This document shows positions 50,605 through 63,610 of a DNA stretch of 64,000 nt, in pieces. The notes under the pieces were generated by a model, which saw only the letters and a list, made by a program, of their open reading frames with translations, had not been told where the DNA came from and made no database searches. Each line of letters begins with the position of its first letter. Position 1 is the first letter of the stretch. Origin of the DNA: Numidum massiliense. GTDB lineage: Bacteria > Bacillota > Bacilli > Thermoactinomycetales > Novibacillaceae. The stretch is from contig NZ_CTDZ01000008.1 of NCBI RefSeq assembly GCF_001375555.1, forward strand, positions 8,279-72,278. Direction: 5' to 3'. Both the position numbers and the translations under genes were made by a program.

Positions 50605-50967
50605 ATGGGAAACGTGTACGATAAGGCACACGCGCTCGCGCGAGAACTGCGCCAGGCGCCGGAGGTTGTCCAATTGCGGGAGATTAGTCAGCAGATCGAA
50701 ACTAATCCGGAGCAAAAAAAGTTGTTACTGGCGTTTCAGCAACAACAGTTTGCCCTACAGGCGAAACAGATGCAAGGAGAGAGCCCGAGCGAAGAAGACG
50801 TAAACAAACTGAACGAACAGGTAGCAAAATTGCAGCAAGAGCCGTTGTTAGTGCAGTACTTAGAGCTGATGCAGCGCCTTAGCGTCATAACGGCCGACAT
50901 TCAGCAAATTATGAGCGAGCCACTGCAAGACATTTTTCACTTCGCGGAAGGAGACATGCCGGAATGA
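50605..50967 (+). CDS. yheA: YlbF/YmcA-family protein YheA (UPF0342)
   Basis: A 120-residue helical protein of the UPF0342/YheA family, related to YlbF and YmcA, which form the Y-complex that steers RNase Y in B. subtilis; YheA itself is uncharacterised. Residues 1-55 and 70-110 are long amphipathic helices rich in Gln and Glu ([16 protein letters not shown]). GAAGGAG 7 bp upstream supports the ATG. Its stop overlaps the next gene by 4 bp. Confidence 0.88.
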
Positions 50968-51653
50968 ACATGACTTGGCACGGGCAAAGTTGTTTTGAAA
51001 TTGAGCACGAAGGGACGCGGCTCATTATCGACCCGTTCTTAACCGGCAATCCGCTGGCCAAAAAAGCGGCGAAAGACGTCAAGGTCGATTATATTTTACT
51101 GACGCACGGCCACAACGATCACGTCGGCGACACGGTAGCGATTGCGAAACAGAACGACGCGACGGTGATCGCCACGTTCGAACTGGCGACGTACATGGAA
51201 TGGCAAGGTGTGAAAGCACACGGCATGCAACACGGTGGCAGCTACCGATTTGATTTTGGCCGCGTCAAGATGACGCTAGCGTTTCACGGTTCCGCTTACC
51301 AGCCGGACGGTGAAGAGACATTCATTTATACTGGACAGCCAGCGGGATTGTTGTTGTTCCTCGGCGACAAAACAATTTACCATGCGGGTGACACCGCACT
51401 GTTCGGCGATATGAAATTACTCGGCGAATTTGAAAACGTCGATTTGGCGATGCTGCCGATCGGCGACAACTTTACGATGGGGCCAGACGACGCCGTCATT
51501 GCGGCCGAATGGGTCGGGGCTAAAGCTGTCGTTCCGATGCACTACAACACGTTTCCGGTGATCGAACAAGACCCGCACGCCTTCGTGTGCAAGCTAGAGG
51601 CGAAAGGGATTAAAGGCTTTGTTCCGGAAAGCGGCGTCGCTTTTCGCTTTTAA
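50964..51653 (+). CDS. metallo-beta-lactamase-fold hydrolase (UPF0173, YtkL-like)
   Basis: A 229-residue cytoplasmic metal-dependent hydrolase. The metal-binding motif is [10 protein letters not shown] near residues 48-57, with further His/Asp ligands in [10 protein letters not shown] and the C-terminal PMHYNTFP. The N terminus [13 protein letters not shown] is diagnostic of the UPF0173 group. The natural substrate is unknown. It starts with an ATG overlapping the yheA stop codon, so the two are translationally coupled. Confidence 0.92.
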
Positions 51654-51687
51654 CTCGTGTGTATAGAGGTGGCGTACATTAACAACT

Positions 51688-51736
51688 TGTAAAGTCTCTG
51701 TAATCTTACTGTAACATTCCCCTGTTATGCTATAAG
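51688..51736 (+). promoter_or_regulatory. three 11-bp-spaced TGTAAN boxes with an extended -10: PhoP/WalR-type promoter
   Basis: TGTAAA (51688), TGTAAT (51699) and TGTAAC (51710) are direct repeats with exactly 5 bp between, the geometry of WalR and (read on the other strand as TTACA) PhoP boxes. Downstream at 51728-51736 lies TGCTATAAG, an extended -10. The repeats cover the expected -35, which is poor on its own, as in response-regulator-activated promoters. Confidence 0.65.
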
Positions 51737-51741
51737 CACGA

Positions 51742-51791
51742 TGAAAAACCCCCTTAATCAGCGATGTGGTCACGGAAACCACATCTTTTTT
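51742..51791 (+). ncRNA. candidate ~50-nt small RNA ending in an intrinsic terminator
   Basis: From the predicted start just after the extended -10, the transcript would contain a single-stranded AAAACCCCCUUAA region and then GATGTGGT (51763-51770) pairing with ACCACATC (51778-51785), followed by TTTTTT. No coding frame with a ribosome binding site lies in it. The C-rich stretch is complementary to strong Shine-Dalgarno sequences. Existence and targets are inference. Confidence 0.45.
51763..51791 (+). terminator. intrinsic terminator
   Basis: An 8-bp perfect stem with a seven-base loop and a six-T run. It could end either the yheB-yheA-MBL transcript or the predicted small RNA. Confidence 0.85.
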
Positions 51792-52003
51792 CTTTTTCAG
51801 GACCTTTTTTAACCTCGAAGCCCAGCTCCAAAACTCCATAACTCCAAAACTGAAAAATTTTATAAGTTCCGAAGTTACCAAGTTCTAAAGCCCTTAGCTT
51901 CGAGGCGCGGTGGCATGCTGCATCACCGACAAGCTGCGTACATAGACGCGGCTCTATTGCACGTTCGATGGCAGGTTAACGATTGTGTACGAGAGCTAGA
52001 ACG

Positions 52004-52489
52004 TTAGTTTAAAGTGAGCGACAGCAATTCGTCGCCAACCTCTACGCGACCGCCTATCGCGACAACTTCGATCTCCGCGACTGCGTCCATATTCGTGACG
52101 ACGAGTGGCGTAATAATCGACGGGACACGCGGTTTAATTTGCTCCCAGTCGACCGTCATTAACTGCTCCCCAGCCTTTACCGTGTCACCCGCCGCTACTG
52201 CACACTGAAAGCCCGTGCCTTCCAAGTTGACCGTATCGATGCCGAGGTGGAGTAACAGATCAATCCCTTTCGCTTGTAAGCCGATGGCGTGCAACGTTGG
52301 AGCTACTTGGACAATTTTCCCGGCTGCCGGTGCACAAACGGACGCCGACTGTGGGGCGAGTGCAATGCCGTCTCCTAACATTTTTGATGAAAAAACGTCG
52401 TCCGGCACGTCGGTTAACGGAACGATTTCTCCAGAAAACGGTGCGAGTAACGTCAGTTTCTTCTTGTTGAAATTGAATAGTTTGAGCAT
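52004..52489 (-). CDS. PTS glucose-family EIIA component
   Basis: A 161-residue soluble IIA(Glc)-type phosphocarrier. The active-site histidines are H67 (LHAIGL) and H81 in the LLHLGIDTV block, the latter being the phosphorylated one in the family. It passes phosphate from HPr to an EIIB domain. The divergent murP encodes EIIB-EIIC but no IIA, so this protein is its likely partner, as MurP relies on a separate IIA(Glc) in other bacteria. GGAAGG precedes the ATG. Its leader carries a RAT/terminator switch. Confidence 0.9.
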   Translation of the reverse strand: MLKLFNFNKKKLTLLAPFSGEIVPLTDVPDDVFSSKMLGDGIALAPQSASVCAPAAGKIVQVAPTLHAIGLQAKGIDLLLHLGIDTVNLEGTGFQCAVAAGDTVKAGEQLMTVDWEQIKPRVPSIITPLVVTNMDAVAEIEVVAIGGRVEVGDELLSLTLN

Positions 52490-63409: not shown

Positions 63410-63450
63410 TGATCCCATCCTTAAGTCGTGTTATGCGATCAACCTCTCGG

Positions 63451-63577
63451 GTACGCTGACGGGGTTAGCTGACGGGTTCGGGACTGAGAGTTTCCCGGCT
63501 CACGTTTGCGAGCTTCACCCCTGGAGCGGTCGGCGCTCCGTTGGATCCCCCGTTCTCCAAATAGGAAATTAAGCGTT
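63451..63577 (-). promoter_or_regulatory. c-di-AMP riboswitch (ydaO/yuaA class)
   Basis: The minus-strand RNA carries the hallmark segments in order: ACGCTTAAT, ACGGGGGATCCA, AGGGGTGAAGCTCGC, GAGCCGGGAAACTCTC, CCCGAACCCGTCAGCTAACC and CGTCAGCGT closing P1. They correspond one by one to the ydaO consensus. No T-tailed terminator follows before the start codon, so control may act through the downstream segment or translation. Binding c-di-AMP normally turns such genes off. Confidence 0.93.
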
Positions 63578-63610
63578 TCAAAATTCTCGCATTGCAAACA
63601 GCTACTTTAC

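Follow-up and report, generated by a model that had tools for sequence, protein, structure and literature searches.

A conserved small RNA gene behind response regulator-type direct repeats in Numidum massiliense, with a seed predicted to pair with Shine-Dalgarno sequences

The window analysed here, a 64,000-nucleotide stretch of the Numidum massiliense genome, contains an intergenic region between a ytkL-type metallo-hydrolase gene and a convergent PTS EIIA gene (Table 1). A preliminary description, made from the letters alone, had proposed a small RNA in this region, with no gene between the repeats of its promoter and an intrinsic terminator, and we could confirm that the stretch from the end of ytkL to the terminator is free of genes. 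The three TGTAAN hexamers lie on the coding strand with an exact 11-bp spacing, as had been reported; head-to-tail repeats with this period are of the type bound by OmpR/PhoB-family response regulators. Within the 64 kb, TGTAA-N6-TGTAA is confined to this site (two overlapping matches versus 0.13 expected, a number reached in 0/100 shuffles), and the perfect TGTAA triple occurs a single time in the whole 3.76-Mb genome. In relatives, a weaker fourth half-site (TGAAAT or TGTAAC) precedes the first TGTAA by 11 bp. Of 50 non-identical loci, 50/50 have A as its fifth base, and the sequence upstream of it is near random among them. The -10 element had initially been assigned to TATAAG (51731-51736), which is not conserved and was placed 5 bp off; the conserved hexamer is TATGCT, at a distance of 10 bp from the third repeat. 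A simple promoter scan of the window did not pick up the promoter because it has no -35 element.

Table 1. Features of the small RNA locus, in window coordinates
Feature	Position	Strand	Basis
ytkL-type metallo-hydrolase gene, conserved upstream neighbour outside the RNA	50964-51653	+	Pfam Lactamase_B_3
Fourth, upstream half-site position, CATTAA, degenerate in the window	51677-51682	+	11-bp register
Direct repeat 1, TGTAAA	51688-51693	+	seen in the window; 44-49/50 per base in relatives
Direct repeat 2, TGTAAT	51699-51704	+	seen in the window; kept in relatives
Direct repeat 3, TGTAAC, -35 position	51710-51715	+	seen in the window; kept in relatives
-10 hexamer, TATGCT (TAnnnT)	51726-51731	+	T, A and T unchanged across 38 aligned loci
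Predicted sRNA, start 51738-51741, end in T run, ~51-54 nt	51738-51791	+	inferred from conserved -10 and terminator
Seed GATGAAAAACCCCCTTAA, unpaired, complementary without mismatch to the DUF1002 start	51740-51757	+	fold and pairing
Intrinsic terminator hairpin, 8 bp, 7-nt loop	51763-51785	+	fold; compensatory changes at 8/8 pairs
T6 tract of the terminator	51786-51791	+	seen in the window
PTS EIIA gene, downstream, convergent	52004-52489		

Given the position of the conserved -10, transcription more likely starts within 51738-51741 than at 51742 as first suggested. The RNA 51742-51796 folds into the terminator hairpin only, leaving GAUGAAAAACCCCCUUAAUC open and the CCCCC stretch (51749-51753) single-stranded, which agrees with the exposed C-rich segment that had been predicted. 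The terminator behind the promoter was likewise confirmed, with eight pairs followed by T6, and each of the eight pairs shows two-sided compensatory changes across relatives; 91.1% of cells are paired, a value matched in 0/500 shuffles, and slid controls give at most 64%. Searches with the Rfam 15 covariance models, run on the window and on 51600-52010 at a loose threshold, gave no bacterial match at the element, and no sRNA family (LhrC, RsaE/RoxS, FsrA and others) scored above its gathering score.

The 131-bp region, used as a BLAST query, matched 12 further genomes of the class (E<=1e-3, best 6e-21). We then used a pattern consisting of two repeats followed by ATGAWA...CCCCCTT, in which the first TGTAA was not required, and found it on 49 GTDB contigs, with about one chance match estimated, from Brevibacillus, Aneurinibacillus, Ammoniphilus and Thermoactinomycetaceae (e.g., Laceyella, Hazenella and Thermoflavimicrobium). 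By model search, the RNA was detected in 30/38 sampled genomes of the order to which Numidum belongs, and all 30 have the CCCCC seed behind GATGAAAA or GATAAAA. The nearly invariant parts are the repeats, the -10 and GATGAAAA(A)CCCCC. In relatives the element occupies the same locus, 3' of ytkL, DUF445 or ylbF, and is mostly followed by ytoI or ytpI (74/92 loci counted, some of them redundant); the window is an exception on this right side, where the usual ytoI/ytpI neighbour is missing. The repeats are thus kept along with the -10, a 5' end whose C-rich sequence does not vary and a terminator stem with compensatory changes. This comparative evidence bears out a small RNA behind PhoP/WalR-type repeats, and is the opposite of one of the cases that the preliminary description named as fatal to it, namely unconserved repeats beside a terminator serving only the upstream operon.

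We then searched the start regions of the genome for complements of the seed and obtained one outstanding match, the gene for a secreted, YpuA-like DUF1002 protein (PF06207). Its start reads TTAAGGGGGTTTTTCATCAATG, of which 18 nt, TTAAGGGGGTTTTTCATC (G000:C9:368155-368172), are complementary to positions 51740-51757 of the window without a mismatch. The full duplex of the RNA with the DUF1002 leader has a predicted energy of -46.4 kcal/mol, and 0/1000 shuffled leaders were as good; the ortholog of the nearest relative has AAGGGGGGATTTCATC at its start. A DUF1002 gene was found in 42/42 genomes of the order, among them the 38 searched with the model, and we compared its ribosome-binding site with the occurrence of the RNA. 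GGGGG stands at this site in 28/30 genomes with the RNA (24/26 counted automatically plus four more, read directly in G030 and G035 and inferred from the protein frame in G009 and G016), versus 1/8 genomes without detected RNA, its absence being called from a filtered model search. The association has a Fisher p of 2e-5 by genome and 0.0016 by genus (20/21 versus 1/5 genera), values inflated by kinship among the genomes, which do not count as independent observations. Genera g4, g17, g25 and g26, the lineages without the RNA, all lack GGGGG at DUF1002, and seven genomes have neither (G003, G024, G028, G029, G036, G037 and G038); the exceptions are G021 and G034, which have the RNA without GGGGG, and G018, with GGGGG but no detected RNA. 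The median duplex energy was -21.1 kcal/mol at DUF1002 starts versus -9.7 kcal/mol at 57 control start regions taken from the same loci, one of which proved to be a DUF1002 start. Pairing of the CCCCC stretch with Shine-Dalgarno sequences, suggested earlier by analogy with other Gram-positive RNAs, is thus supported by a ribosome-binding site that co-varies with the RNA: an unpaired C-rich seed is complementary to it and is conserved together with the target. This names a co-evolving target for the sRNA and gives a clear example of a Shine-Dalgarno sequence that stays GGGGG, and not the customary GGAGG, in genomes that have the sRNA. In B. subtilis, the ypuA promoter is in use as a reporter of cell-envelope stress (PMC9147123).

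DUF1002 cannot be the sole target of the RNA, because the gene is absent from the Brevibacillus-type genomes searched and its start region in an Ammoniphilus genome is different and shows no match; we therefore rejected it as a universal target and consider further targets likely. Candidates with AAGGGGGTTT-ATG in Brevibacillus include an FtsW/RodA-type gene (in two species), sugar-binding proteins and others; many such matches lie off gene starts, and their counts are not far above a reversed-pattern control. Long-complementarity searches in Brevibacillus returned only the sRNA itself and isolated weak matches.

To look further afield, we built a covariance model from promoter and RNA and ran it on 398 sampled genomes of the class, which gave matches in 239 of them, from 108/146 genera. 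Brevibacillus-type genomes have two matches each. At most of the loci examined, the second kind of match is flanked by trxB and by a NUDIX (yvcI-like) or rapZ (yvcJ-like) gene, the rapZ assignment having been made by eye from the sequence. This sister RNA has four hexamers with 5-bp spacers, 10 bp to a TAnnnT, then ACCCCCUU and a terminator, with the CCCCCUU seed and the terminator at a fixed distance as in the window RNA. The window promoter falls into the same register (four hexamers, N5 spacers, N10, TAnnnT), its first box being degenerate, and in many genomes the window model finds the sister loci at E values of about 1e-8 to 1e-10. An Rfam search of 20 sister loci gave no match to an sRNA family. 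A 52-nt independent transcript with a high expression value has been reported between trxB and yvcI in B. licheniformis (PMC3871023), and a yvcI-trxB intergenic sRNA of B. amyloliquefaciens FZB42 has been described as potentially homologous to one in B. subtilis (PMC4634765). From its position and length, we infer that the B. licheniformis transcript is the sister gene modelled here, and it is the best available evidence for transcription of the window copy, whose predicted RNA (51740-51791) is also 52 nt long. BLi_r2828, the trxB-yvcI ncRNA, thus shares with the window RNA its promoter plan, the ACCCCCUU seed, the terminator and a length of about 52 nt, whereas locus and seed flanks differ. 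Our search of the open-access literature found no function for the trxB-yvcI RNA, and the present comparison ties this abundant transcript to a promoter type and a probable mode of action.

With both RNAs in hand, we weighed whether the terminator might simply end the DUF445-ylbF-ytkL operon, the repeats being a chance occurrence or an unrelated regulatory site. It is found 110 bp beyond the stop codon of ytkL, the upstream genes are always co-oriented, and read-through from the operon could indeed use it. An operon terminator has, however, no need for four phased repeats, an invariant -10, an invariant 18-nt seed or a co-varying partner mRNA, and the sister RNA repeats the same plan at an unrelated locus where a 52-nt transcript is known; we regard this explanation as very improbable. 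Even less credible is that ATGAAAA, an almost invariant sequence at the predicted 5' end, opens a leaderless small protein. The A run is four or five long, so that the frame shifts after codon 3, and ATGAAAA is accordingly not a codon start. It is preceded by no Shine-Dalgarno sequence, the downstream residues are not kept, the frame enters the terminator, G034 has GATAAAACCCCC, and many sister RNAs are without ATG at that place. A coding peptide was thus ruled out on frame and conservation.

The identity of the regulator bears on a further alternative, a phosphate-starvation sRNA whose boxes PhoP would bind in the opposite direction. Reverse-complementing TGTWAA gives TTWACA, PhoP boxes are likewise repeats spaced by 11 bp (four precede the alkaline phosphatase gene of this genome), and the four-repeat arrangement resembles Pho promoters. 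Yet the PstS-like, alkaline phosphatase and GDPD-adjacent solute-binding genes of the same genome carry TTWACA on their coding strand, opposite to the boxes of the sRNA, which makes PhoP less likely than WalR, and we consider a PhoP-driven gene unlikely, though well ahead of the two explanations above. All three hexamers fit the WalR (YycF) box TGTWAH-N5-TGTWAH in sequence and in coding-strand orientation. The sRNA has three to four boxes 10 bp from the -10, whereas two promoters of this genome that are likely of the WalR type have two boxes at 21 bp: those of an OmpR-type regulator and a polysaccharide deacetylase (L104, G000:C9:953648, and L105, G000:C9:1276889), which share TGTWACATTTTTGTTAC-N21-TATACT. 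Genome-wide box counts equal those of a reversed-pattern control. Judged by box sequence and orientation, the regulator would be WalR in the first place and PhoP in the second, or another member of the OmpR family. Each of six Brevibacillus-type genomes has a single exact copy of the promoter plan, located at the sRNA. The Numidum genome has one second perfect copy, TGTAAA-N5-TGTAAC-N10-TATAAT, and no further ones. This copy (L080:1500-1640, corresponding to G000:C9:3350450-3350597, minus strand) precedes a 38-aa membrane peptide, MNESQHVHAPFWIGVATATLGSVPLWGLLVLLIKIIAS, with GGGGGTG in its start region; a similar peptide stands behind an imperfect copy in G001 (L083). The peptide is possibly a second member of the sRNA's regulon.

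Returning to the small RNA gene itself, we consider it probable that this is a free-standing gene activated by an OmpR/PhoB-family regulator, with a CCCCC seed that blocks translation of mRNAs including DUF1002. The response regulator would bind the half-sites, three to four in head-to-tail order along the coding strand, which end 10 bp before the -10, and switch on an RNA of about 52 nt made up of an unpaired 5' segment, GAUGAAAA(A)CCCCCUUAA, and the terminator hairpin. The CCCCC would pair with AAGGGGGUUUU(C)AU-type Shine-Dalgarno sequences and thereby block ribosome binding, the conserved target within the order being the mRNA of DUF1002, a secreted cell-envelope protein; the net effect would be that synthesis of exported proteins is stopped under the inducing stress. 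Comparison among relatives shows that promoter, seed and terminator are conserved and that the target co-varies; the window copy is probably transcribed, and the effect is probably one of repression. Very probably, then, the RNA shuts off the DUF1002/YpuA-like protein when a two-component system turns it on.

The sRNA is real, conserved and absent from the Rfam families, and belongs to a kind that is already known, with a response regulator-type promoter and a C-rich, Shine-Dalgarno-pairing motif; we found no named or functionally studied counterpart of it in the open-access literature. The CiaR-driven csRNAs of streptococci are likewise short, with response-regulator direct repeats near the -10 and an anti-Shine-Dalgarno motif; they differ in their TTTAAG repeats, in their regulator and in the clade, and the likeness noted is one of layout. 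RoxS/RsaE and FsrA, from Bacillales and Staphylococcus, act with C-rich motifs on Shine-Dalgarno sequences, as proposed here, but have another sequence and locus, and the window RNA has no Rfam match to them; their regulators are ResD/SrrA and Fur. LhrC1-5 of Listeria resemble our reading in being envelope-stress sRNAs with C-rich pairing motifs under the OmpR-type LisRK, and block translation of lapB, which encodes a cell-wall protein (PMC4132741). LhrC, however, exists in several copies and has three UCCC sites, some of the sequence lying in loops, in contrast to the single 5' CCCCC seed of the much shorter window RNA.

At a locus of G091 (L224:1493-1608), a sister-type RNA adjoins a ytpI-like gene, which is the window RNA's own locus and therefore supports a common origin of both RNAs. 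Whether the two form one ancient, Bacilli-wide family, an LhrC-like RNA arm of an OmpR-family envelope-stress system with DUF1002/YpuA as one long-conserved target and others specific to clades, we regard as evenly balanced. The RNA described here would add another widely spread sRNA family to the few known to be conserved across distant Bacilli; RsaE/RoxS has been described as the only trans-acting sRNA, besides 6S RNA, common to S. aureus and B. subtilis (PMC4409812).

Directly 3' of the sRNA, on the side where the window lacks the common ytoI/ytpI neighbour, lies a near-perfect hairpin of about 96 bp (51811-51906; -51.9 kcal/mol, z -8.85). It resembles a small palindromic insertion element and accounts for spurious microRNA matches in the Rfam search; the sequence examined contains no second copy. 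The window also contains a c-di-AMP riboswitch (RF00379, 92.8 bits) at 63439-63585 on the minus strand.
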